This document shows positions 50,518 to 63,710 of a DNA stretch of 64,000 nt, piece by piece. The notes beneath the pieces are model-generated. The model made no database searches and was not told the DNA's origin. It saw nothing but the letters and a program-made list of their open reading frames with translations. The position numbers and the translations under genes were made by a program. The stretch spans positions 61,836 to 125,835 of the forward strand of contig NZ_LR588417.1 in the NCBI RefSeq assembly GCF_901447155.2, given 5' to 3'. This stretch comes from Peptoniphilus catoniae. Lineage in GTDB: Bacteria; Bacillota; Clostridia; Tissierellales; Peptoniphilaceae. Each line of letters opens with the position of its first letter. Position 1 is the first letter of the stretch.

Positions 50518-51774
50518 ATGTTAATAAAACAAGTAAGACTTATGGATCCTGAATCGGGAACTGATAAGGTTTGTGACATCCTAATTAAAGACGGACTTAT
50601 AAGGGAAATAGGGCAGATTGACATAGGTGATGAGGAAACAATTAATGGCAAGGACCTAGTGGCAGCTCCGGGCTTTGTAGATATTCATGTCCATTTTAGA
50701 GATCCGGGATTTACTTATAAGGAAGATTTGACCTCAGGATCGGAAGCCGCAGCTTGTGGAGGCTATACATCAGTTGTATGTATGGCAAATACCAAACCCG
50801 TTATGGATAATGTAAAAACCTTAAGGGAGTTTATAAAAAGGGCCGAGGAGTCAAAAATAAATATTTATACAGTTTCAGCTTTAACCCTTGGAATGAAGGG
50901 TGAGGAGCTTGTTAATATGGAAGCCATGATAAAGGAGGGAGCCGTAGGATTTTCAGATGACGGCATACCCAACACAAGGACGGATATTATAGTTGAGGCA
51001 ATGGAAAGAGCAAAAAATCTTGATGTACCTATATCCTTTCATGAAGAAGACCCGTCCCTTAACAGGCAAAACGGAATAAATCATGGGAGGGTTTCAGATG
51101 CCTTAGGAGTTTATGGAGCTCCGGCTATTTCAGAAGAGGTATTTGTTGCAAGAGACGGTCTTTTGTCTTTAAGGACGGGAGCAAAAGTTGATATACAACA
51201 CATATCATCAGGTGGAACTGTAGACCTTATGAGATACTACAAAAAAATGGGAGCCAAGCTCTATGGAGAGGTTACTCCTCACCACTTTTCATCAACAGAG
51301 GACCTGGTTTTTGAAAAGGGAAGCCTTGCAAAAATGAATCCCCCCCTTAGAAGAGAAGAGGACAGGCAAAAAATAATAGAAGGATTAAAGGACAATACAA
51401 TTTCAATAATAGCAACGGACCATGCTCCTCATAGTAAGGAAGAAAAGGAAAGGAAACTTTTAAAAGCCCCATCAGGTATTATAGGACTTGAAACTGCCCT
51501 TGGTCTTGGTAATAAAAATTTAGTTAAAAAAGGTCACTTGAGCCTTATGGAACTAATAGAAAAAATGACAATAAACCCGGCAAAGCTTTTTAATTTAAAG
51601 GCGGGAAGAATTTTTAAGGGAGGACCTGCAGATATAGTAATCTTTAATCCCAATGAGGAGTATATAGTAAAGGACTTTAAATCAAAATCAGACAATTCTC
51701 CCTACCTGGGGGAAAAATTAATAGGCAAGGTTAAATACACCATTTGTCGAGGTAAAATAGTATATAAAAATTAA
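50518..51774 (+). CDS. Dihydroorotase/hydantoinase-type amidohydrolase
   Basis: 418 residues, class I PyrC-like. Metal ligands and motifs: HVHFRDPGFTYKED, FHEEDP, DIQHISSGGT, TPHHFS and IATDHAPHSKEE; a bridging Asp is in VGFSDDGIP. Dihydroorotases cyclise carbamoyl aspartate; hydantoinases of the same superfamily open related rings. No pyrB, pyrD, pyrE or pyrF is nearby, while a molybdenum hydroxylase and a HAL-family lyase are. It could therefore be a catabolic hydantoinase. Sequence alone favours the PyrC annotation. Confidence 0.85.
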   Translation: MLIKQVRLMDPESGTDKVCDILIKDGLIREIGQIDIGDEETINGKDLVAAPGFVDIHVHFRDPGFTYKEDLTSGSEAAACGGYTSVVCMANTKPVMDNVKTLREFIKRAEESKINIYTVSALTLGMKGEELVNMEAMIKEGAVGFSDDGIPNTRTDIIVEAMERAKNLDVPISFHEEDPSLNRQNGINHGRVSDALGVYGAPAISEEVFVARDGLLSLRTGAKVDIQHISSGGTVDLMRYYKKMGAKLYGEVTPHHFSSTEDLVFEKGSLAKMNPPLRREEDRQKIIEGLKDNTISIIATDHAPHSKEEKERKLLKAPSGIIGLETALGLGNKNLVKKGHLSLMELIEKMTINPAKLFNLKAGRIFKGGPADIVIFNPNEEYIVKDFKSKSDNSPYLGEKLIGKVKYTICRGKIVYKN

Positions 51775-51803
51775 AAGAGAGCCGCCGAGAGGGCTCTCTT
51801 TTT
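51774..51803 (+). terminator. Terminator of the dihydroorotase-type gene
   Basis: AAAGAGAGCC and GGCTCTCTTT arms followed by TTT, overlapping the stop by one base. Confidence 0.9.
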
Positions 51804-51846
51804 AATAAATTATCTATTTATCTAAATAAATAGATAATTTATTAAA
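51801..51846. repeat. 46-base near-perfect palindrome
   Basis: Arms of 21 bases (51801-51821 and 51826-51846) are exact reverse complements around the loop CTAA; the stem includes AATTATCTATTTAT. It abuts the T-tail of the preceding terminator and is 58 bases before the next gene. It may be an operator or a hairpin in the leader. Confidence 0.75.
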
Positions 51847-51904
51847 TCAGGGGTAATAGATAGGCAAGACGTAAGGTTGTGGTTTATATGAAGGGAGGAA
51901 GATT

Positions 51905-52513
51905 ATGGACAGTAGGGTAACAGTTAGACCAAGTGTTATAGTAAATGCAGCACCTGCCACGACATTTATTTATTGTTGTCTATGCTTCAGCTTTGCAGCT
52001 ATGCTTTTAGGAGTGGTTAATGAAGGGGCGGCACTTGCTGTAGGGGTTTTACAACTTAGCGTATTTATAGGCTACACCATAGGATCAGTATTTATTTTAA
52101 AATCAGGATCCGGCATAGGAGGAAATACCTTCTTTATTTTTGCAACTATATTCGGTTGCACAGGAGGAAGCCTTACTATAGCAAATGAAATAGCAAAAGC
52201 TAAAGGAATAGCATTTTCTACTCAAATAGCAAGCGTAATTTACATAGTAAGTGGACTTATGCTTTTTGTTATTCTTTATGCCAACAGAGTAAGTCCGAAA
52301 ACCGACTTTTTTATTATTCTGTTTGCGGCAATAGGTGTCAGTTCAGTTGGCTGGTCAGGATTTGTCCTTGAAGAACTTCTTACCAAAGTAGCAGGCATTG
52401 CATTATTAATAGACGGTATTATAGTTTTTTATACATCATCTATAGGATTTATTGAAATGTCCGGAAACAAGGTAAACTATGGAAGGCCTTTTGTAGACAA
52501 AAAATCAGCTTAA
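51905..52513 (+). CDS. GPR1/FUN34/YaaH-family-like transporter
   Basis: 202 residues with six hydrophobic segments. The N-terminal VNAAPATTFIYCCLCFSFA resembles the NPAPLGL motif region of acetate/succinate transporters of the YaaH family, but the motif is degenerate. It probably moves a small carboxylate or other small solute. It sits 21 bases before the molybdenum hydroxylase gene, likely in one transcript. The start has AAGGGAGG. Confidence 0.65.
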   Translation: MDSRVTVRPSVIVNAAPATTFIYCCLCFSFAAMLLGVVNEGAALAVGVLQLSVFIGYTIGSVFILKSGSGIGGNTFFIFATIFGCTGGSLTIANEIAKAKGIAFSTQIASVIYIVSGLMLFVILYANRVSPKTDFFIILFAAIGVSSVGWSGFVLEELLTKVAGIALLIDGIIVFYTSSIGFIEMSGNKVNYGRPFVDKKSA

Positions 52514-52534
52514 ATAAGATGGAGGGGAAGATTT

Positions 52535-55306
52535 ATGACGGTAACTATGAAAATTAACGGTAAAGAAGTAAAAACCGAAGAAACCAAAAAAACCTTGCTT
52601 CGTTTTTTAAGAGAAGACATGGGGTTGGTAGGAACTAAGGATGGTTGCAGTCAAGCTCAATGCGGAACCTGTACTGTAATTATAGATAAGAAGGCTGTTA
52701 AATCATGTACCAAAAGGCTTGATAAGCTTGACGGAGCACAGATAACTACAATTGAAGGTCTTGCTTCCAATGGAGAGCTTGATCCGATTCAAACGGCATT
52801 TTTAATAAGACACGGATTTCAATGCGGCTACTGCACTCCGGGAGTAATACTTGCGGTAAAGGCTCTATTAGATGAAAATCCTCATCCCAGCGATGAAGAA
52901 ATTAAAAATCAGTTAAAAGAAAATATATGTAGGTGCACAGGCTATCAACAAATAATTGAATCTGTACATACTGCTATAGATATAATTGACGGGAAGATCC
53001 CCAACAAAATTGAAAATAAAAAAGGATGGGTTGGAGAAAGCCCTGCAAGTAAGCATGGAATTGAAAGGGTAACGGGAGCTACATTATTTGTGGACGATTT
53101 TCCTTTTAAAGGAGCCCTTGAAGGCAGATTAAGATTTACCGATTATCCTCATGCAAATATAAAAAATATAGACTACTCAGAGGCTGAAAAAATGCCGGGA
53201 GTTGAAAAAATTATAATAAGTAAGGACATACCGGGAAAGAAGACCTTTGTTGAAGACGTATATCCTCAAGATATACTTGCCGTAAATAAGGTTCACTTTA
53301 TAGGAGACCCCATTGCTTTAGTATTTGCAGATACAGTTGAAAATGCAGACAAGGCTGCCAAGGCTATAAAAATAGACTATGAAGTTTTAGATGTAATAGA
53401 TACAGCTGAAAAAGGACTTGATCCCAACTCTGAAAGAGTTCACCCAGAATACCCTAATGCCTACCATGTTTCAAAGGCTAAAAAAGGAAACGTTGAACGT
53501 GGCTTTGCTGAATCCGATGTAATTGTTGAACAGGAATTTGTAACTCAAAGAGTTGAACACGGAATCCTTGAACTTAATGCCAGCCTTGCAAGATATGATG
53601 AAAATGGTAGAATGGAGCTTTATGGAACAGGACAAAACCCTACTAAAATAAAGGGAGATGTATGTAAGGCCTTAAATCTTAAGGATGAAGAGTTAAGGTA
53701 TGTAAACAGACCTGCAGGTGGAGCTTTTGGAGGACTTGAAGATTTAACTTTACAAATTTTTGCAGCCCTTGGAACCTACTATACTAAAAAACCTGTAAGA
53801 GTTACTATATCTCGTAGACAGGTACAAGCCTTGACACCTAAACGTCATCCTATTCATTTTAAATATAAGACAGGGGTTAAATATGACGGAAGTTTGATGG
53901 CAATTCAAGGTAGAGCCCTAATAGATTCAGGAGCCTACAACAGCTTGGGAGATTTTCTTGCAACCTGTACAGCAGCTATGGGTTCAGGACCTTACTCAGT
54001 ACCAAATACCGATTTTGAATCCACAATAGTCTTTACAAATAACACCTATGGAGGATGCTTTAGAGGTTACGGAAGTACTCAAGTAACGGTATGTAATGAA
54101 ACCCTTTTGGATAAGGCTGCAGAAGCTATAGGAATGGATCCTTTTGAGTTCAGAATGAAAAACGGACTTGAAATAGGTAAACAAACTCCAAGCGGACAAA
54201 TTATAGATTATAGCTGTGGCTTTAAAGATTGTCTAAAAGCAATTCATGAAGCTTTTGAAAAAGAAGGGCTACCTGAGCCGTCAGGCCCCGATAAAAAAGT
54301 AGGCTACGGAATAGCAGGAGCCTTTAAAAACGGCGGATATGGAAACGGAATGGAAGACGGAGCCGGAACTAAAATTGAGCTTACCGATGACGGAAAGTTT
54401 TTAATTCATACAGGAGCAGTTGAATGCGGCCAAGGCGTTGACACCGTAGTATGTCAAATAGCAGCCCAAACCTTAGGAGTAGATTATGACGATGTAAATA
54501 TAGGCCCTGTAGATAACGATGTATCACCATATTCAACAGGAAGTACCAGTGCATCCCGTGCAACTTACGGCTTCGGAAACTCAGCCAAGGCAGTTTGCAC
54601 TATGTTTAAGGAAGCTCTTTTAAACTATGTTGCTGATAAGAAGAAAAGAAATGCATCACTTTTAGATATGAACGAAAAGGGAGTATATGACTTAAAGGAT
54701 GATTTCTCCATGACCTATAAGGAAATAGCAAAAATGCTAAAGGAAAATGGGGACAAGCTGGTAAAAGAATACTATTATGTTGATAAAATCGTACTTCCTC
54801 TTCAAGATGACGGAAACAATATAAACAACGATCCCGACAGAAAGGTTTATACAACCTATATATATTCCGCACAAATTGCAGTAGTTGAAGTTGATACAAA
54901 GACAGGGGAAGTAAAGGTATTAAAGGTTTACGCAGCAAGCGATGTAGGAAGAACCATTAATCCTGATCTTGTAGATGGTCAGCTTATAGGAAGCGTAGTA
55001 ATGGGCATGGGCTATGCTCTTGGAGAAAACTTCGAACAGGAAAAAGGTCAAATAGTAAGGAAGAACTACAAGGATCTTCACGTTCCTACAATTTTAGAAG
55101 CACCTGAAGTTGAAACTTTTAGAATAGAAGAAACTCACCCCTTTGGTCCATATCAAGCAAAGGGATTGGGAGAGGGTGCCTTAAACCCTGTAGCACCTGC
55201 AATTTTAAATGCAATTTACAATGCGGTAGGGGTAAGGATAGACAGACTCCCTGTAGACAAAGATAAACTTGCAGAGGCAATAAAAGGAGATAAAATTTAT
55301 AAATAA
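52535..55306 (+). CDS. Molybdenum hydroxylase, Mop-type aldehyde oxidoreductase/xanthine dehydrogenase family
   Basis: 923 residues in one chain. Two [2Fe-2S] domains: the plant-type CSQAQCGTC and the second CGYCTPGV with CRCTGYQQ. The large cofactor domain contains GGAFGG, SASRATYGFGNSAK and the catalytic Glu in KGLGEGAL. There is no FAD domain, so ferredoxin or flavodoxin would be the electron partner. The gene hydroxylates an aldehyde or heterocycle; the neighbours suggest a heterocycle of the histidine pathway, but the substrate is unproven. Confidence 0.92.
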   Translation: MTVTMKINGKEVKTEETKKTLLRFLREDMGLVGTKDGCSQAQCGTCTVIIDKKAVKSCTKRLDKLDGAQITTIEGLASNGELDPIQTAFLIRHGFQCGYCTPGVILAVKALLDENPHPSDEEIKNQLKENICRCTGYQQIIESVHTAIDIIDGKIPNKIENKKGWVGESPASKHGIERVTGATLFVDDFPFKGALEGRLRFTDYPHANIKNIDYSEAEKMPGVEKIIISKDIPGKKTFVEDVYPQDILAVNKVHFIGDPIALVFADTVENADKAAKAIKIDYEVLDVIDTAEKGLDPNSERVHPEYPNAYHVSKAKKGNVERGFAESDVIVEQEFVTQRVEHGILELNASLARYDENGRMELYGTGQNPTKIKGDVCKALNLKDEELRYVNRPAGGAFGGLEDLTLQIFAALGTYYTKKPVRVTISRRQVQALTPKRHPIHFKYKTGVKYDGSLMAIQGRALIDSGAYNSLGDFLATCTAAMGSGPYSVPNTDFESTIVFTNNTYGGCFRGYGSTQVTVCNETLLDKAAEAIGMDPFEFRMKNGLEIGKQTPSGQIIDYSCGFKDCLKAIHEAFEKEGLPEPSGPDKKVGYGIAGAFKNGGYGNGMEDGAGTKIELTDDGKFLIHTGAVECGQGVDTVVCQIAAQTLGVDYDDVNIGPVDNDVSPYSTGSTSASRATYGFGNSAKAVCTMFKEALLNYVADKKKRNASLLDMNEKGVYDLKDDFSMTYKEIAKMLKENGDKLVKEYYYVDKIVLPLQDDGNNINNDPDRKVYTTYIYSAQIAVVEVDTKTGEVKVLKVYAASDVGRTINPDLVDGQLIGSVVMGMGYALGENFEQEKGQIVRKNYKDLHVPTILEAPEVETFRIEETHPFGPYQAKGLGEGALNPVAPAILNAIYNAVGVRIDRLPVDKDKLAEAIKGDKIYK

Positions 55307-55376
55307 TTTAGTTTAGACTATAAAATAAAATCTTATCTCTTATCTAGTTAAACAAGTAAATTATAATTAGATATTA

Positions 55377-55426
55377 GAAAAGGGCGGGTGTCCATTTATA
55401 AATTATATGTGGCATCCGCTTTTTCT
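55377..55426 (+). terminator. Probable terminator of the molybdenum hydroxylase gene
   Basis: AAAAGGGCGGGTGTCC pairs imperfectly, with G-U pairs, with GGCATCCGCTTTTT around a 17-base loop, 70 bases after the stop, followed by a T run. Confidence 0.7.
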
Positions 55427-55584
55427 ATTTATTTCTAATAAAATAATAAATTTCTCATATAGGGGATGTACTTTATATTGTTAAGAAACACTTTATCTTA
55501 TATAAAAATTCAAAGTAAAAACAAAATTAAAACTATAGAGTAAATTAGCTGAAATTATTTAGAGGATAAGAATTAATTAAAGTG

Positions 55585-55613
55585 TTGACACTATAACTAT
55601 AAAGTAATATTAT
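55585..55613 (+). promoter_or_regulatory. Promoter for the lyase-BCCT operon
   Basis: TTGACA at 55585-55590, a 17-base spacer and TATTAT at 55608-55613, a good vegetative promoter. The leader to the lyase start would be about 400 bases, unusually long. Confidence 0.6.
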
Positions 55614-55738
55614 TATAGCATGAGTGGTAGAATGTTAGCGCACAAAAGCGTGCACAATGCATATAAGATGCTTTTCAAGTGTTGACAAATTTTTTATGCC
55701 CTGGAGGAAGTAATTAATAGGCGTAAAAAACACGTAAG

Positions 55739-55761
55739 ATTTAATCTCTCTAAGAGATTAA
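55739..55761. repeat. 23-base palindrome in the lyase leader
   Basis: TTTAATCTCT, CTA, AGAGATTAAA; perfect arms. No T run follows, so an operator is more likely than a terminator. The GntR regulator encoded at 59196 is a candidate binder. Confidence 0.5.
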
Positions 55762-55912
55762 AAATAATTAACTACAAACTTAAAACTCCGGTTTTTCTTA
55801 AACAAGTCATTAATGTGTAAGGTTTTTCTAAGGTTAGAGACTACAAAAATAAATTTAAAGGGACAATTCATATAATAAAAGGGAGAGGAATTTTTTATAA
55901 AAAATTCTTTTC

Positions 55913-56017
55913 TATGGAATAATAAATGCTATTAATAGTGCCCTGTATGCAAAGGTTAACCTTGGAAGAACCGTCAATAATATAGATGCATTAAATGAAA
56001 AAAATAAAGAGAGGTGA
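55913..56017 (+). pseudogene. Possible 3' remnant of a second molybdenum hydroxylase gene
   Basis: The frame ending TGA 56015-56017 has no start codon and reads YGIINAINSALYAKVNLGRT, then VNNIDALNEKNKER. This resembles the C-terminus of xanthine dehydrogenase-type proteins (AI-NAI--A----LP-TPE-VL-AL-EK), including the molybdenum hydroxylase upstream. It could be the decayed end of a deleted paralogue. The match is short, so the call is tentative. Confidence 0.35.
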
Positions 56018-56021
56018 GTAG

Positions 56022-57518
56022 ATGGAAAAATTAATTTTAACAGGCAAACCTTTAAGCCTTCAAGATGTTTATGAAGTGGCATTTGAAAATCGCTTAGTTG
56101 ATATTTCAGATGATGCGAAAAATCGCGTTAAGGCTGCAAGGCAAATTTTATTTGATATGGCGGCTGAAGGAAAACCTGTATATGGACTGAACAGAGGGGT
56201 AGGTTGGAACAAGGACAAGGAATTTGACGAAGATTTTTTTGCTCAATACAATAGGAACCTTTTAAATTCTCACTGTTTAGGAGTAGGCCCCTATCACACA
56301 GATGAACAGGTAAGGGCAATTCTACTAATTAGACTTAATAAGGCCCTTGCAGGTTGCACAGGTCTTAGCTTGGATTTGGCAGACCATTACAAAAGTTTTT
56401 TGAATTACAGAATCCATCCAAGAATTCCCATGAGGTCCTCTGTAGGTGAAGCCGACATTACGACACTTTCACATATAGGCTTGGCCTTTATTGGAGAAGA
56501 GGATGTAAGCTTTAATGGTGAAATTGTAAATTCTAAAATCGCCATGGACAAGGTAGGGCTTGAACCGGTAAAGCTTGGACCTAAGGATGGACTTAGCATT
56601 GTTTCTTCCAACGCTCAGGGAGAGGCTATGACCGCTATTATACTTAAAGAGATTAAAGATCTTGTAAAAATGGCCAACCTTGTTTTCTGTATGAGTTTGG
56701 AAGGACTTAACGGAGTTACTGAACAACTTAGAGAAGACGTAAATGCCCTTAGAGGAATTAAGGGTCAAATAGAAGCTGCAAGTATGTGTAGAGAATTTTT
56801 AAAGGGCAGCTACCTTTATGAGTATGACCCTAAAAGAGCTCTTCAAGACCCATTAAGTTTTCGTTGTGCACATTCAGTAAACGGAGCTTTATATGATGCC
56901 CTTAAATATGTTGAGGAACAACTTAACATATCCATGAATTCAACAGACGATAATCCTTGCATAATTATTGATGAACAATCATCTTTTGTAAGTTCCAACT
57001 TCGAGGTTACTTCCCTTGCTATAGGAGTTGAGATGTTGGCTGTTGGTCTTAGTCACTTATCAAAGTCATCCTGCTACAGAATGATTAAACTTGCAGATCC
57101 GGCTTTCACAGGTTTAACCCGTTTCTTAACACCTAAAGAAGTTACAACAATTGCCTTTGGTACAATTCAAAAAACATATACAATGCTTGATACTCAAAAT
57201 CGAGGACTTGCAAATCCTTCTTCAATGGACTTTTATGCAATGGCAGGAGGAATTGAGGATCATGCAAGTAATTTGCCTCTAGCTTGCTATAAGATAATGC
57301 AAATGCTGGACAATATTTATTACATATTAGGAATTGAAGCAATGCATGCTGCACAAGCCATAGACCTAAGAGGAGATATTAAGTTAGGTCGAGGCACTTC
57401 AAAAGCTTATAAGATTTTTAGAGAGTATGTTAAGTTCTATGACAAGGATAGAAATCTTTCCAGAGACATACAAAAAGCTTATGAGTGTATTAAATCAAAG
57501 AAATTCATAAATATCTGA
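56022..57518 (+). CDS. MIO-less histidine ammonia-lyase homologue, candidate ergothionase
   Basis: 498 residues, full-length HAL/PAL fold: YGLNRGVG, NLLNSHCLGVG, STDDNPCIII, EDHAS. The Ala-Ser-Gly triad that forms the MIO cofactor (residues 142-144 of Pseudomonas HAL) is missing; the aligned stretch is SVGEADITTLSH (Glu143-Ala144-Asp145). Tyr of YSLR is Leu (QDPLSFR) and NFHG is NFEV. Canonical histidine deamination is therefore unlikely. Ergothionase, which releases trimethylamine from ergothioneine, is a HAL homologue reported to lack MIO. The BCCT transporter gene 8 bases downstream supports a betaine substrate. The start has GAGGTGA. Confidence 0.8.
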   Translation: MEKLILTGKPLSLQDVYEVAFENRLVDISDDAKNRVKAARQILFDMAAEGKPVYGLNRGVGWNKDKEFDEDFFAQYNRNLLNSHCLGVGPYHTDEQVRAILLIRLNKALAGCTGLSLDLADHYKSFLNYRIHPRIPMRSSVGEADITTLSHIGLAFIGEEDVSFNGEIVNSKIAMDKVGLEPVKLGPKDGLSIVSSNAQGEAMTAIILKEIKDLVKMANLVFCMSLEGLNGVTEQLREDVNALRGIKGQIEAASMCREFLKGSYLYEYDPKRALQDPLSFRCAHSVNGALYDALKYVEEQLNISMNSTDDNPCIIIDEQSSFVSSNFEVTSLAIGVEMLAVGLSHLSKSSCYRMIKLADPAFTGLTRFLTPKEVTTIAFGTIQKTYTMLDTQNRGLANPSSMDFYAMAGGIEDHASNLPLACYKIMQMLDNIYYILGIEAMHAAQAIDLRGDIKLGRGTSKAYKIFREYVKFYDKDRNLSRDIQKAYECIKSKKFINI

Positions 57519-57526
57519 GGTGGAAC

Positions 57527-59077
57527 ATGGAAAAGAAAAAAATTGATAAAAAAGAAGTTCGTTGGGGAGTCTTTATCCCTGGATTTATATTAATGTTTAC
57601 TGCCGCTATAATCGGAATTGTAAATAACCAAGCTCTATCAACTATATCAAATAATATATTTAAGTGGTCCTTGGACAATTTCGGATGGCTATACCAAATT
57701 ATTACGATTTTTGTTTTAATTTTAACCTTAACTATTATGTTTTCCAAGGTAGGAAGTATTCGTCTGGGAGGAAAGGACGCCAAACCTCGTTTTTCATTTA
57801 TGACTTGGTTTGCCATGACTCTAACAGGTGGAGTTGCTACAGGTATTGTTACCTGGGGTGTTAACGAACCTATTATTTATTATGGTAATGTTTGGGGAGA
57901 GCTGGACAAGCTTGGAATAGAACCTTTTTCAGAGGAAGCTCTACGCTTTGCCATGGGAAGATGTTTCTACAACTGGACCTTCCCTCCCTATGCAATATAT
58001 GCTTTAATGGGTGTTTTAACAGCCTATGTATACTTTAATAAAAAACAACAGCTTTCAGTTACATCAACTCTTACACCTTTATTTGGAGAAAAAATCAAGA
58101 ACTCAAAAGCATCAACTGTAATTGACGTTTTATCCATGCTGGGAGTAGCTATTGGACTTTCTTCAGGATTTACAGTTTGCCTTGTACTTTTAACAACAGG
58201 TTTAAAATCAGGCTATGGTATTGAATCAACTATGCCTTTATTTATAGGCTTAGGTCTTTTAATTGTAGTTTTGTTCTCAGCATCTTCTTATGTAGGACTT
58301 GATAAAGGCTTGGCAAAGGTGGGTAACTTAAATGCTTACTTCTACTATGGACTGTTAATTTTCTTATTTGTTGTAGGACCGACTTTGTTTATTTTAAGAA
58401 ATACTACAGCAGGTATGGCTGAGTGGTTACATAACTTCTGGAGATGGGGACTTGATCCTATTGATATAGGTGGAGAAGCCTTAGTTCGTTCATGGACCCT
58501 ATTTGACTTTTCCGTTTGGATTGCCTATGCTCCTGTAACGGGAATTTTCTTGGCACAAATTTCTTATGGAAGAACAATTAGAGAATTTTTAACTATAAAC
58601 CTTTTGTTACCGGCTATTTTCGGTATCATTTGGTTCGGAGTTTGGGGAAACAATGCTTTATTTATGCAAATGACAGGAGAATTGGATTTAGTAAACGCAA
58701 TTCAAAATACCAATGCAACTATGGCTCTCTTTGAATTTATCAAGAGTCTGCCTCTGTCAGCTATTATTATCCCGATTAATCTTTTTATAATTCTAATGTC
58801 CTTTGTAACAGCTGCTGATGCTACATCAACATCAATTGCATCTATGTGCATGAAAAATATTCCTATAGGATCTGAGGCTCCCGGACCTATGAAAATTATC
58901 TGGGGTGCAACTATTGCTTGTATAGCTATAGTTATGGCAGCCTTTGGCGGAGGAGAACAGGGAGTTCAAGGAGTTAAGGACTTGGCTGCTGCAGGTGGAT
59001 TTGTAGTATTGTTTATCTTTATACTTCAAGTTATCTCAGCAATAAAAACCTTCTTCTTTGATAAGCTTGAAGAATAA
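57527..59077 (+). CDS. BCCT-family betaine/carnitine/choline-type transporter
   Basis: 516 residues, about twelve membrane segments. The Trp-rich signature region reads FSVWIAYAPVTGIFLAQISY followed by GRTIREF. The third-helix motif, usually G-M-G-I-G, is G-V-A-T-G here (GGVATGIVTWGVNEP), so coupling or substrate specificity may differ. It moves quaternary ammonium compounds. It directly follows the MIO-less lyase gene, which suggests ergothioneine or a similar histidine betaine as substrate. The start has GAGGTGG. Confidence 0.92.
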   Translation: MEKKKIDKKEVRWGVFIPGFILMFTAAIIGIVNNQALSTISNNIFKWSLDNFGWLYQIITIFVLILTLTIMFSKVGSIRLGGKDAKPRFSFMTWFAMTLTGGVATGIVTWGVNEPIIYYGNVWGELDKLGIEPFSEEALRFAMGRCFYNWTFPPYAIYALMGVLTAYVYFNKKQQLSVTSTLTPLFGEKIKNSKASTVIDVLSMLGVAIGLSSGFTVCLVLLTTGLKSGYGIESTMPLFIGLGLLIVVLFSASSYVGLDKGLAKVGNLNAYFYYGLLIFLFVVGPTLFILRNTTAGMAEWLHNFWRWGLDPIDIGGEALVRSWTLFDFSVWIAYAPVTGIFLAQISYGRTIREFLTINLLLPAIFGIIWFGVWGNNALFMQMTGELDLVNAIQNTNATMALFEFIKSLPLSAIIIPINLFIILMSFVTAADATSTSIASMCMKNIPIGSEAPGPMKIIWGATIACIAIVMAAFGGGEQGVQGVKDLAAAGGFVVLFIFILQVISAIKTFFFDKLEE

Positions 59078-59135
59078 AAAATTTATAGCATTTGAAATAA
59101 TTTAATGATTATAATAGAATACTCATTGGGTATAT

Positions 59136-59167
59136 AAAGAGCGGCAGATTTATAGCTGCTCTTTATT
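59136..59167 (+). terminator. Terminator of the lyase-BCCT operon
   Basis: AAAGAGCGGC and GCTGCTCTTT arms with a G-U pair, followed by ATT. Confidence 0.75.
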
Positions 59168-59195
59168 AATTTATAATGGAAGATGTGAAGATTCT

Positions 59196-59837
59196 ATGCG
59201 TATTAAAAGGATAAGTATTAAAGGACAGGTATTTGATTTAATTAAGGAGAAAATTCTAAAAAAGGAATATAAGCTTGGAGAATATATAAATATTCAGGAG
59301 CTTACAAGGCAACTTTCTGTTAGCAATACTCCTATTAGAGAAGCTTTGTCCTCATTGGAGGCGGAGGGTTTAATTGAATTATCCGACAACTCTAAATACA
59401 AGGTTATTGACTTATCTGAAAAGGAAATTGTCGACTTAAATGAGAGTATTTTAATTCTACTCCTAGGCTCTCTTAACCTGATAAGGCAAAAGAATAGGGT
59501 GGCTATTTTAGAAGATCTTCTTGAGAAAGCATACTTGGACCATTTAAAAATATATGAAATGAAAAAAGCCTTTGATTATGAATACATTAAAACATCCCTT
59601 AACTTTGACAGGCAATTTGTTGTTGCAACGGATAATGTCTATATGGGTAGAGAGTTTGACAGTTTAGTAAATCTTTTACTTTTAACATCAATTTACAATA
59701 AAAGTGCCTATAAAGATATACACTTTGAGGAACACCGCCTTATGTTTGAAGCTATAAAGAAAAGAGATTTTGATGAAATAGAAAACATTTTAAAAAGGCA
59801 TTTTAATAAAAAAGAAAGTGATATGGATTACAGTTAA
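59196..59837 (+). CDS. GntR-family regulator with FCD-like domain
   Basis: 213 residues. N-terminal winged helix with ELTRQLSVSNTPIREALSSLE; C-terminal helical domain with His/Asp positions typical of FCD metal sites (NFDRQF, FEEHRL, KRHFNKK). It is the gene after the lyase and BCCT transporter and is a probable local regulator. It has its own terminator. The start ATG 59196 has only a weak ribosome-binding site. Confidence 0.88.
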   Translation: MRIKRISIKGQVFDLIKEKILKKEYKLGEYINIQELTRQLSVSNTPIREALSSLEAEGLIELSDNSKYKVIDLSEKEIVDLNESILILLLGSLNLIRQKNRVAILEDLLEKAYLDHLKIYEMKKAFDYEYIKTSLNFDRQFVVATDNVYMGREFDSLVNLLLLTSIYNKSAYKDIHFEEHRLMFEAIKKRDFDEIENILKRHFNKKESDMDYS

Positions 59838-59869
59838 GTTTGTGATTAAAAGTCAAATAGAAATAAGAA

Positions 59870-59906
59870 AAAGGACCTACTTGTTTATAGAGTAGGTCCT
59901 TTTTTA
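59870..59906 (+). terminator. Bidirectional terminator after the GntR gene
   Basis: AAAGGACCTACT and AGTAGGTCCTTT arms with T runs on both strands. It also ends the tRNA transcript on the minus strand. Confidence 0.88.
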
Positions 59907-59923
59907 TAGTATAAAAATTTTTA

Positions 59924-60000
59924 TGGTGCACACAAGAGGAATTGAACCCCCGGCCTAGGCTTTAGGAGAGCCTCGCTCTATCCTACTGAGCTATGTGTGC
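59924..60000 (-). tRNA. tRNA-Arg (anticodon CCT)
   Basis: On the minus strand a full cloverleaf is visible: acceptor GCACACA with TGTGTGC, D-arm GCTC...GAGC, anticodon stem AGGCT/AGCCT with loop CTCCTAA (anticodon CCT, reading AGG), T-arm with TTCAATT, and an encoded 3' ACCA. Length is 77 bases including CCA. The T-stem has wobble pairs. Confidence 0.93.
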
Positions 60001-60113
60001 ATTAAATAAATTTTATTATAAGTTAAAGAATATGTCAATTATTTGAAAAATTTTGTAGAAGTTCATATAAATTAAGAACTATAAAATGTTTATCTTAAAT
60101 ATAAGAACATAAA

Positions 60114-60136
60114 AAAGGGCGGCAATCCCGCCCTTT
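60114..60136 (-). terminator. Terminator of hutI
   Basis: AAAGGGCGG, loop CAATC, CCGCCCTTT; on the minus strand it is followed by TTT, 10 bases after the hutI stop. Confidence 0.88.
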
Positions 60137-60146
60137 AATTTAAAAA

Positions 60147-61412
60147 TTATTTAAGTCTTTGTCTGTTTTCTACTACTAACTCACCTTTTTTATAAACTTG
60201 TGAGCATAGGTTTGTAGCAAAGAAGTATAAAGTATAGTCAAGGTTAGGTGCGTCAAATATAGTTATATCTGCATCCTTTCCTTCATCAAAGCTTCCGATT
60301 TTGTCCGCTCTTGCAACTGAATAAGCAGCGTTAATAGTAACTGCATTATATACTTCAATTGGTGTAAGCTTCATAGCCAAGCAGCCTAATTGCATAATGA
60401 ATTGTAGGTTTGCTGTTGGACATGAACCTGGATTACAGTCTGTAGTAAGAGTAATTGCCATACCTGCATCAAGCATCTTTCTTGCAGGAGCAAAAGTATC
60501 AGCCATTAAAGAGAAAGTTGTTCCGGGAAGAAGATTTCCTATAACTCCTGCCTCAGCAAGTTTTTTAATATCTTCATCAGTTATAACCATAAGGTGTTCT
60601 GCTGATGTAGTTTTAAGTTCAGCCGCTACACTTGATCCGCCAATAGATTCAATTTCATCAGCATGGATTCTGGTTTTAAGTCCGGCCTCTTGAGCAGCCT
60701 TTAAGATTCTTCTTGATTGATCCGCTGTAAATACTCCCTTTTCGCAGAAAACATCACAAAATTCAGCCAAGTTTTCTTCAACAACCTTAGGCATCATTTC
60801 TATAACTTGATCTACAAACTTATCAGGATTGTCTTTAAGATCTGTAGGTATTGCATGAGCTGCCATAAAAGTTGATACAAGATCTATAGGAAGGTCCTTG
60901 TCAAGCTTTTTAACAACCTCCATTTGTCTTTTTTCAGTTTCCCAGTTAAGACCGTAGCCTGATTTAGCTTCAACAGTAGTAACTCCATGTACCATCATAT
61001 GATCAAGAAGCTTTTCGGTTTTATTGTAAAGGTCTTCAAAAGAAGCTTCTCTTGTAGCTCTTTGAGTAGAAAGAATGCCACCGCCTTGTTCAAGAATTTC
61101 AAGATAGGTTACTCCGTTTAACTTCTTTGAAAATTCATGTTCACGGCTACCGCCATACACAAGGTGAGTGTGGGCATCTATAAGACCTGGAGCTGCGGTT
61201 TTGCCTTTAAGGTCAACCATTTTAGTTTTGTCGGACTTTAGTTCCTCAGGCACACTGCCTTCTCCAACTTTTAAAATTTTGCCGTCGGCTATAGCTATAT
61301 ATCCGTTCTTTAAAACTGTAGCCTTGTTCATCTCATCTCCACGTAGTGGATGTCCCGGGTCATTAGGGACAAAGATTTCATTAAGATTGTATAAAATTTT
61401 ATCTGCAGTCAT
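60147..61412 (-). CDS. hutI: Imidazolonepropionase
   Basis: 421 residues, amidohydrolase fold. Metal site [14 protein letters not shown], further ligands in [20 protein letters not shown] and a conserved Asp in [13 protein letters not shown]. It opens imidazolone propionate to formiminoglutamate in histidine breakdown. The frame is open to 61439, but GGAGG sets ATG 61412. It is divergent from hutU with a shared intergenic region. Confidence 0.95.
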
Positions 61413-61682
61413 AATTACCTCCATTATTAAAAATATCAAATCCTTTTACAATGTTGTCTGTATGGTTTATAATTGTTATTGGAAACGTACATATATTAGT
61501 ATAATATACTAATTAAATTAAATCTACCATGGGTCTAATTAACATCTAAGGGGCCAAGACCGAATAGTTGGGCAAATTTTCAAGTGGAGATTGTAACGTT
61601 TTCTCGACGTTGACTTTTTAAAGACGAAAAAAGCATAATATATCTTTCAGAAAGTTTATATTTTATTTAAGGAGGAATAAAA
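61413..61682. promoter_or_regulatory. Divergent hutI-hutU control region
   Basis: The 270-base gap contains a palindrome ATTAGTAT-AAT-ATACTAAT at 61495-61513, an inverted repeat AACGT/ACGTT at about 61596-61611, a near-match to a catabolite-response element around 61480-61493 (TGGAAACGTACATA), and a hutU promoter TTGACT (61610-61615), 18-base spacer, CATAAT (61634-61639). Confidence 0.6.
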
Positions 61683-63710
61683 ATGCTAAACAATAATGAT
61701 ATTGCAGGAGCAATGAAGATTAAGTTAGAGTTCGACGAACTTCCTGAACTTCCTAAGTTTAAAGAAGGAATTCGTAGAGCACCTGACAGAGGATTTAGAT
61801 TATCTCAAGCTCAAACTGAATTGGCACTTAAAAACGCACTAAGATACATCCCTGAAAAATTCCATGAACAATTAATTCCTGAGTTCTTAGAAGAACTTAC
61901 AACTAGAGGAAGAATCTACGGATACAGATTTAGACCTGAAGGAAGACTTTACGGTAAGCCAATTGATGAGTACAAAGGTAACTGTATTGAAGGTAAAGCT
62001 TGCCAAGTAATGATTGAAAACAACCTTGACTTTGACGTAGCTTTATATCCTTACGAATTAGTAACTTACGGTGAAACAGGATCTGTATGTCACAACTGGA
62101 TGCAATACAGACTTATTAAAAAGTACCTTGAAGTAATGACTGATGAACAAACACTAGTTGTTGAATCAGGTCACCCACTAGGACTTTTCGCATCAAGAAA
62201 GAACTCTCCAAGAGTTATAATCACTAACGGTCTATTAGTTGGCGAATATGACAACCATGATGACTGGGAAATCGCAGAAGAAATGGGAGTTACCAACTAC
62301 GGACAAATGACAGCAGGCGGCTGGATGTACATTGGACCTCAAGGTATAGTTCACGGTACATTTAACACTATCCTAAACGCAGGTAGATTAAAATTAGGTC
62401 TTAAGGCTGAAGACGACTTAAGAGGAAAACTATTTGTAACATCAGGACTAGGCGGAATGAGTGGTGCTCAAGGTAAAGCAGCAGAAATCGCTCACGCTGT
62501 AGGTGTTGTTGCAGAAGTTGACTACTCAAGAATTGAAACAAGACTTGAACAAGGTTGGGTTTCAAAAGTAGCTGAAACTCCAGAAGAAACAATGAAACTT
62601 GCTAAAGAATATCTAGAAAAAGAAGAAGCAATGTCAATCGCTTATCACGGAAACATTGTAGATCTTCTACATTACATTGACAAAAACAATATTCACGTTG
62701 ACCTACTTTCTGACCAAACTTCATGCCACAACGCATATGATGGTGGATATTGTCCAGTAGGAATTTCTTTCGAAGAAAGAACAAGACTACTTGCTGAAGA
62801 TCATGACAAATTCGTTAAACTTGTTAACGATACATTAAGACAACACTTTGAAGTTATCAAAGCATTAGTTGCTAAGGGAACTTACTTCTTTGACTATGGT
62901 AACTCATTTATGAAAGCTGTATATGATGCAGGCGTTAAAGAAATATCTAAGAACGGCGTAGACGACAAAGACGGATTCATTTGGCCAAGCTACGTTGAAG
63001 ATATTATGGGACCACTTCTATTTGACTACGGATATGGACCATTCAGATGGGTATGCTTAAGCCGTAAGCACGAAGACCTAATCCAAACAGATAAGGCAGC
63101 TATGGAAGCTATCGATCCTAACAGAAGATACCAAGACAGAGATAACTACAACTGGATTAGAGACGCTGAAAAGAACAAGCTAGTAGTAGGTACAGAAGCA
63201 AGAATTCTTTACCAAGACGAAGAAGGAAGAGTTAGAATAGCTCTAGCATTTAACAAACTAGTACGTGAAGGCAAGATTGGTCCTGTAATGATGGGCCGTG
63301 ACCACCATGACGTATCAGGCGTTGACTCTCCATTCAGAGAAACCTCAAACATCAGAGACGGTTCAAACGTATGTGCAGACATGGCAGTACAATGCTACGC
63401 AGGTAACGCAGCAAGAGGTATGTCAGTTATAGCTCTTCACAACGGTGGCGGTGTTGGTATAGGTAAATCTATTAATGGTGGATTCGGACTAGTTCTTGAC
63501 GGATCAGAAAGAGTAGACGAAATTATTAAACTATCTCTAAGCTGGGACGTTATGGGCGGAGTTGCTAGAAGAAACTGGGCTAGAAACGAACACGCTATTG
63601 AAACTGCAGTAGAATTTAACAAGAATCGTAGTGACGGACACATCACTATTCCTTACCTAGCAGACGACAAAAAGGTTAAGGATGCAGTTGCTAAAATCTT
63701 TAACAAATAA
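61683..63710 (+). CDS. hutU: Urocanate hydratase (long form)
   Basis: 675 residues, close to the about 676-residue form known from eukaryotes and some anaerobes, longer than the about 550-residue Pseudomonas type. It uses tightly bound NAD to hydrate urocanate. Visible motifs: GETGSVCHNWMQYRLIKKYL, TSGLGGMSGAQGKA, DQTSCHNAYDGGYCPVG and the catalytic Cys in GPFRWVCLS. The codon choice is richer in AAC, TAC, GAC and CAC than the neighbours, a sign of strong expression. In this context it could also act on thiourocanate. Confidence 0.95.
   Translation: MLNNNDIAGAMKIKLEFDELPELPKFKEGIRRAPDRGFRLSQAQTELALKNALRYIPEKFHEQLIPEFLEELTTRGRIYGYRFRPEGRLYGKPIDEYKGNCIEGKACQVMIENNLDFDVALYPYELVTYGETGSVCHNWMQYRLIKKYLEVMTDEQTLVVESGHPLGLFASRKNSPRVIITNGLLVGEYDNHDDWEIAEEMGVTNYGQMTAGGWMYIGPQGIVHGTFNTILNAGRLKLGLKAEDDLRGKLFVTSGLGGMSGAQGKAAEIAHAVGVVAEVDYSRIETRLEQGWVSKVAETPEETMKLAKEYLEKEEAMSIAYHGNIVDLLHYIDKNNIHVDLLSDQTSCHNAYDGGYCPVGISFEERTRLLAEDHDKFVKLVNDTLRQHFEVIKALVAKGTYFFDYGNSFMKAVYDAGVKEISKNGVDDKDGFIWPSYVEDIMGPLLFDYGYGPFRWVCLSRKHEDLIQTDKAAMEAIDPNRRYQDRDNYNWIRDAEKNKLVVGTEARILYQDEEGRVRIALAFNKLVREGKIGPVMMGRDHHDVSGVDSPFRETSNIRDGSNVCADMAVQCYAGNAARGMSVIALHNGGGVGIGKSINGGFGLVLDGSERVDEIIKLSLSWDVMGGVARRNWARNEHAIETAVEFNKNRSDGHITIPYLADDKKVKDAVAKIFNK

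Follow-up and report, generated by a model that had tools for sequence, protein, structure and literature searches.

Does the segment between positions 50518 and 63710 of a stretch of 64,000 nucleotides from Peptoniphilus catoniae (the window, G000:C5:61836-125835, which reaches the contig end in a genome of 1.73 Mb and 15 contigs) encode the uptake and breakdown of ergothioneine, and which enzymes would then act on the thiourocanate formed from it? An earlier, sequence-only reading had proposed such a locus, and every gene on its list was found at the position given, by gene calls and family models (Table 1; loci, genomes and contigs carry our L, G and C numbers). The part of that proposal concerned with an ergothionase, a betaine-type carrier and a regulator stands, and the roles that it had assigned to hutU and to an amidohydrolase do not. 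The explanation that we regard as the best, and as probable from homology, phylogeny and gene arrangement, is import by the BCCT-family carrier, cleavage by ergothionase, desulfuration by a three-subunit molybdenum enzyme encoded on another contig (C1), and further degradation by HutU, HutI and FtcD, the ergothionase unit being located in a genomic island from which an enzyme formerly encoded upstream would have been lost. The likelihoods given below to rival explanations are not mutually exclusive.

The assignment of the window lyase as an ergothionase (ergothioneine trimethylamine-lyase) is well supported by homology. Its closest match in the PDB, end to end, is the ergothionase 6s7j/6s7q (phmmer, E 3.7e-274); it scores 912.8 bits to 6s7j, with the next chain, 7tqr, at 251.5 bits (E 1.4e-73), and 400 of 496 aligned residues (81%) are identical to those of the Treponema denticola ergothionase. 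It belongs to the aromatic amino acid lyase family (Pfam PF00221, 429.7 bits) and scores 350.3 with the HutH model, below the cut-off of 539. The claim that this homologue of histidine ammonia-lyase (HAL) lacks the triad of the 4-methylideneimidazole-5-one (MIO) group is confirmed, since it reads SSVGEADITT where the HutH of the genome reads GASGDLAP, GEAD replacing GASGD and the MIO-forming Ala-Ser-Gly being absent; the comparison with ergothionases and HutH that had been suggested as a check thus places it nearer to the solved ergothionase, with the HutH cut-off missed. The 81% identity to that enzyme over its whole length, and the molybdenum partner enzyme found in many relatives, make it very unlikely that a different imidazole betaine (hercynine or selenoneine, for instance) is the main substrate of the lyase.

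The BCCT gene begins 8 bases after the ergothionase gene, and the GntR gene 118 bases after the BCCT gene, the three forming a tight unit. The same order is found in L046 and L047, and GntR follows BCCT in L026 and L027 too, with 63-64% identity. A scan of genome contigs rendered 78 ergothionase loci, of which 77 were counted (L118 has no called lyase open reading frame, ORF); these include loci at contig ends, several that share genomes (two each in Dethiosulfatibacter, Maledivibacter and Paenibacillus agri), and L115 and L117, which at 39-40% identity may not be ergothionases. BCCT is present in 48 of the 77, in 32 of them within 300 nt. From its position, the carrier is likely the importer of ergothioneine, and the GntR/FCD protein is probably the regulator of the unit. 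Relatives of the window ergothionase at E<=1e-150 are found in 20 of 249 genomes of the order, with 49-84% identity when its own copy is set aside; the plasmid collection contained no close ergothionase, each of the 857 matching records showing less than 60% identity.

Gene order in relatives, another suggested check, showed the recurrent ergothionase-BCCT(-GntR) arrangement and also that the flanking genes are separable from it. In a genus-mate, G149 (L248), the order sstT-like, sdaAA, sdaAB, pyrC, tRNA-Arg, hutI, hutU is that of the window, except that an ORF of 167 aa separates the tRNA from hutI (identities 82% for hutI and 67% for pyrC), and the interval from pyrC to the tRNA holds no ergothionase, BCCT, GntR, YaaH-like or molybdenum-enzyme gene. 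Because the flanks are kept there without these genes, the ca. 8.1 kb between 51.8 and 59.9 kb of the window is an island that was gained here or lost in G149; it comprises the YaaH-like gene, the fused molybdenum enzyme, ergothionase, BCCT and GntR, whereas pyrC, hutI and hutU lie outside it. On account of this empty site, the view of the 13 kb as one functional locus was rejected. The tRNA-Arg, at whose 3' end the right border lies, is present in L248, L249 and L250, and in the last two (G150, G151) it adjoins hutU while the opposite flank differs. In the three genus-mates, one of whose genomes is 84% complete, we detected no ergothionase (E<=1e-150), no relative of the C1 enzyme (1e-100) or of the window molybdenum enzyme (1e-150), and no member of a second MIO-less lyase family described below (1e-120); hutU was found in all four genomes of the genus. 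The ends of the island show no clear direct repeats, only AT-rich 10-mers, and base composition is uninformative (0.356 for the island vs 0.343 for the window). As a separate observation, the called pyrC frame of G149 (L248:12759-14017) ends before the DNA homology does, which could reflect a frameshift or an assembly error.

The next step had been attributed to hutU or a paralogue, hydrating thiourocanate. The window HutU, which passes the urocanase model, scores 303.8 with the thiourocanate hydratase model NF058530, far below its cut-off of 930, and the whole genome contains a single match to that model (304.1 of 930) and no second copy, so that HutU was rejected for this role. The amidohydrolase, proposed as a (thio)hydantoinase, scores 187.6 of 650 with the ErtD model (NF058539, hydantoin-5-propionate amidohydrolase). 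Because it passes the dihydroorotase cut-off, lies outside the island and belongs to a genome with the pyrimidine pathway (pyrB, pyrI and pyrK above curated cut-offs and pyrD above the Pfam cut-off, together on C2), we assign it as the biosynthetic dihydroorotase PyrC, outside the ergothioneine pathway; on the model scores and the pyr genes, its reading as a hydantoinase was rejected.

On C6 (L221:39-4057) a sodium-symporter-like gene, an allantoinase/hydantoinase-like gene (AllB 358.5, cut-off 357.85) and an M20 carbamoylase-type gene adjoin. The last two are what the genome could offer for the route of the sequence-only reading, that is, thiourocanate hydratase, thiohydantoin desulfurase and hydantoin-propionate hydrolase, all the more as the ErtD cut-off is strict and is missed also by genes of two real ergothioneine loci of Bacillus/Paenibacillus (L105 and L110, 491 and 494). 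However, the C6 pair scores 335.4 of 650 with ErtD and 310.9 with ErtE, against 491-494 and 541.6 for the Bacillus/Paenibacillus genes; with no thiourocanate hydratase above the curated cut-off in the genome either (a search there for thiohydantoin desulfurase was not made), this route is extremely improbable here. The distribution of enzymes among the 77 loci points the same way. Of these, 53 contain a xanthine-oxidase-type molybdenum subunit (32 of them at a distance of 300 nt or less), 21 contain a urocanase-family protein, in four cases along with the molybdenum subunit, and 16 contain a member of the thiohydantoin desulfurase family. Since none of these 16 holds the molybdenum subunit, the data suggest two alternative routes. 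Both of the desulfurases scanned (L090, L105) passed model NF058529. Nine urocanase-family proteins were scanned out of 22 in the 78 named loci: those of L084, L097, L103 and L116, beside a molybdenum subunit, passed urocanase and failed thiourocanate hydratase, and those of L085, L088, L105, L120 and L118 passed thiourocanate hydratase. Both the molybdenum subunit and urocanase are missing from seven loci; of these, L098 has the two remaining subunits at its edge, and the thiohydantoin desulfurase family is present in L092 and L108.

Two molybdenum enzymes are encoded in the genome, the fused 923-aa protein of the window and the three-subunit enzyme on C1 (about 259.0-262.7 kb). In a 56-row tree to which ergothionase loci contributed 52 rows (L061 and L062, of 560 and 423 aa, were left out as not exceeding 600 aa), the C1 enzyme clusters with those of L057, L058, L059, L060 and L111 with support 100/100, and this group is nested among 48 rows, 47 of which are ergothionase-neighbouring enzymes. 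A second tree of 56 rows, made by a quick method with purine-type and other enzymes added, retained the group (100). C1-like enzymes (E<=1e-100) are found in all 20 ergothionase genomes of the order vs 8 of the other 229 (Fisher 2e-23, not corrected for kinship). Of these eight, L173 and L174 (from genomes 71% and 82% complete) belong to short contigs that also encode a BTAD-type regulator, L168 is beside two lyases of the second MIO-less family, L171, L172, L175 and L176 look purine-type by eye, and L169 lies between hutI and hutU, with a urocanase beside it, an arrangement that fits urocanate as the product of the molybdenum enzyme. Next to the C1 enzyme, moaA, moaC, modA and modB were above their cut-offs, XdhC-, MocA- and ModC-like genes were below theirs, and a MoeA-like gene had no match at 1e-20. 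The split between contigs is not unique, because G161 has its molybdenum enzyme on C11 and its ergothionase on C28. Passages of PMC12771579 and PMC13405746 cite a xanthine oxidase homologue of gut bacteria as the reductive C-S cleaver of ergothioneine catabolism, and a thiourocanate desulfhydrase that releases H2S; the desulfurating route itself is not claimed here as new. The desulfhydrase that the sequence-only reading had not seen most likely exists, as the xanthine-oxidase-type enzyme on C1.

Several observations weigh against this assignment. The C1 enzyme shares 46-50% identity with the five members of its group and 31-38% with those of the large group, and no ergothionase or hut gene is found beside it in the 20 kb examined. 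The ergothionase-neighbouring molybdenum enzymes make up at least three groups, of which A and B are tied to the reaction by adjacency only and C (L063, L071, L078, L087, L101) falls outside the 48-row clade. Moreover, in the second tree the sister of the linked clade is formed by L171, L175 and L176, from genomes without a called ergothionase.

It could also be the case that the 923-aa enzyme of the window desulfurates thiourocanate, having replaced the lost enzyme in place. It shares its strand with ergothionase, lies upstream of it and belongs to the same island absent from G149; its relatives occur in 3 of 20 ergothionase genomes vs 5 of 229 others, a weak association (p 0.019, uncorrected); and fragments of a second molybdenum enzyme, which match it at 35-36% identity over part of its length, lie some kb upstream of ergothionase in L062. 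But 715 nt separate it from ergothionase, and in the first tree it is a long-branch outlier whose identity to the rows linked with ergothionase does not exceed 31%. In the second it joins three fused XDH-like proteins (98) from among its closer kin (38-44%), and of ten contexts of these kin, 9 contain an amidohydrolase family that we read as SsnA-like. Kin at E<=1e-180 occur in 24 of 398 genomes of the phylum, the best at 44% with its own copy set aside, and its score with the selenium-dependent xanthine dehydrogenase model TIGR03311 is 593.7 of 830. Tree position, weak co-occurrence and the contexts of its kin led us to discard it as the likely desulfurase; such a replacement is unlikely, and the enzyme probably acts outside ergothioneine breakdown. 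The labels YaaH, SsnA-like and purine-type, as well as those of molybdenum-cofactor genes in relatives, are our own reading of the sequences.

In the loci of Peptoniphilus and Anaerosphaera, the end of the molybdenum subunit and ergothionase are no more than a few bases apart, and at the corresponding place in the window ca. 32 codons and a stop resemble the C-terminus of that subunit (IINAINSAL vs IINAINHAL in L046). This stretch, which had been noticed by eye in the translation before it was scored, reached 52, a value attained by 0 of 1000 shuffles when scored against C-termini and by 2 of 300 against whole proteins, and is a probable 3' relic of a lost xanthine-oxidase-type large subunit. 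Against this, the best of 681 other proteins scored 48, and the relic was absent from the 8 best tblastn matches of the intergenic stretch. A promoter-like site lies ca. 400 nt before ergothionase, in a region where the scan gave 57 sites vs 43.9 expected, and the sequence from there to ergothionase (55614-56021) has no Rfam match at the gathering threshold.

Another explanation is that the organism performs the lyase step only and exports thiourocanate for other bacteria. The ergothionase operon itself contains no linked-clade desulfurase, and passages of PMC13405746 cite cross-feeding of thiourocanate between gut bacteria. Yet the linked-clade C1 enzyme, HutU, HutI and FtcD are all encoded in this genome, and we find export improbable. 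The identities of urocanase, imidazolonepropionase, FtcD and formate-tetrahydrofolate ligase are shown by homology, the last two being above cut-off on C4 (L218:4851-8118) with a cyclohydrolase-like gene between them below it (177.9 of 275); it is possible that this group constitutes an ATP-yielding end of the pathway. In the preferred route through the C1 enzyme, ergothioneine would be imported by BCCT under GntR control, as suggested by gene position, and split by ergothionase, as predicted from close homology, into trimethylamine and thiourocanate. The latter would be converted reductively by the C1 enzyme into urocanate and sulfide, as phylogeny and co-occurrence suggest, and urocanate would enter the histidine pathway through HutU and HutI of the window and then FtcD on C4, according to family matches. 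An older molybdenum enzyme, placed as in Peptoniphilus relatives immediately before ergothionase, would probably have been lost here.

The one new lead of this analysis is a second MIO-less lyase family that co-occurs with ergothionase. The third lyase of the genome (G000:C3:8597-10081; L003, L126) has the sequence GSVGYLS, gapped at the MIO site, scores 427.6 of 539 with HutH, matches no NCBIfam equivalog above cut-off, and shares 69% identity with lyases that neighbour ergothionase in Anaerosphaera (L050, L051). This GYLS family rendered 16 matches, all with GSVGYL, in 14 of the 249 genomes. Ten of these 14 also belong to the 20 ergothionase genomes (Fisher 7.5e-10, without correction for kinship), and 6 of the 78 named loci have such a lyase together with ergothionase (L050, L051, L052, L062, L095, L116). 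In an alignment of 18 GYLS, 76 ergothionase and 4 HutH rows, with residue numbers and roles that we take to be those of HAL, Y53, Q277, R283 and E414 are kept in 98 of 98 rows and H83 in 97; Y280 is Leu in 18/18 GYLS and 76/76 ergothionase rows and N195 is Ser in 18/18 and 74/76, that is, both families carry the same replacements at two presumed MIO-contacting positions. Among the literature search results on MIO-less lyases, only PMC3903478, on phenylalanine ammonia-lyase, concerns the enzyme class in the part retrieved, and the novelty of GYLS is not established. In a wider scenario, which we advance tentatively and consider rather doubtful, xanthine-oxidase-type enzymes (groups A, B and C) would have been recruited on more than one occasion for reductive C-S cleavage, one being swapped here and leaving its relic, and GYLS would act on a different imidazole onium compound, e.g. 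hercynine, S-methyl-ergothioneine or selenoneine. Near ergothionase or its molybdenum enzyme, L076:8668-11463, L086:15011-17844 and L087:156-2475 contain paired shorter HAL-like ORFs, one partner of which reads GSTGL-SDL, without the full Ala-Ser-Gly.

The features of the segment are collected in Table 1; the tRNA had not been reported in the sequence-only reading, and the protein encoded at 51905-52513 we take to be YaaH/GPR1-like. Of the 78 named loci, 30 contain a regulator of the BTAD/TPR family seen in L058, and a 1006-aa protein near hutH on C8 (L125:13153-16173) is 25% identical to the L058 regulator over 1009 positions (E 1e-104).

Table 1. Features of the analysed segment, in window positions, with the basis of each assignment
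Feature	Positions	Strand	Basis
pyrC dihydroorotase / amidohydrolase	50518-51774	+	NF006839 608.9, cut-off 576
Island, approximate extent	51775-59905	.	Absent from G149, both flanks kept
YaaH/GPR1-like membrane protein (presumed)	51905-52513	+	No Pfam or NCBIfam match
Fused [2Fe-2S]-molybdenum hydroxylase, 923 aa	52535-55306	+	Kin of fused XDH-like enzymes
Promoter-like site, 11/12	55585-55613	+	Consensus scan, weak
Probable relic, xanthine-oxidase-type large subunit C-terminus	55910-56017	+	C-terminal alignment with relatives
Ergothionase, MIO-less HAL family, 498 aa	56022-57518	+	Homology
BCCT-family carrier	57527-59077	+	Pfam BCCT 384.4 bits
GntR/FCD regulator	59196-59837	+	Pfam GntR and FCD
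tRNA-Arg(cct)	59924-60000	-	ARAGORN and Rfam
hutI, imidazolonepropionase	60147-61439	-	TIGR01224 459.2 bits, cut-off 298
hutU, urocanate hydratase	61683-63710	+	TIGR01228 435.6, cut-off 375

Ergothioneine is a diet-derived antioxidant, whose bacterial breakdown gives trimethylamine and, by the desulfurating route, also sulfide. According to passages of PMC13405746 (2026), a BLAST search with a Burkholderia sequence returned ammonia-lyases only and ergothionase was concluded to be limited to few genera; the relatives found here in 20 of 249 genomes of a single bacterial order are to be set against that conclusion. Should GYLS prove to use another betaine, one more group of MIO-free lyases would be open to direct testing.

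The island is of an already known kind, and what is corrected is its downstream chemistry. The lyase resembles the Treponema denticola ergothionase (6s7j, 6s7q), with nearly equal length and loss of the MIO triad at the matching place. Ergothionase is also common to the window and the Bacillus/Paenibacillus loci (L105, L110), but L105 has, by cut-off, thiourocanate hydratase, thiohydantoin desulfurase and ErtE, together with an ErtD-like gene below cut-off and an ABC-type importer by label, whereas the genome of the window fails the thiourocanate hydratase and ErtD cut-offs. The locus of Peptoniphilus faecalis (L047, on the same contig as L027) shares the gene order of the window (ergothionase 84%, BCCT 89% and GntR 64% identical) and differs from it in the surrounding genes, with those of a three-subunit molybdenum enzyme immediately before ergothionase and, downstream, genes read as molybdenum-cofactor genes. 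Finally, compared with the gut pathway with a xanthine-oxidase-type thiourocanate desulfhydrase, as described in passages that cite Feng et al. 2025 (doi 10.1021/jacs.4c09350), the candidate for that enzyme here is encoded on a separate contig, with a probable relic at the old place.

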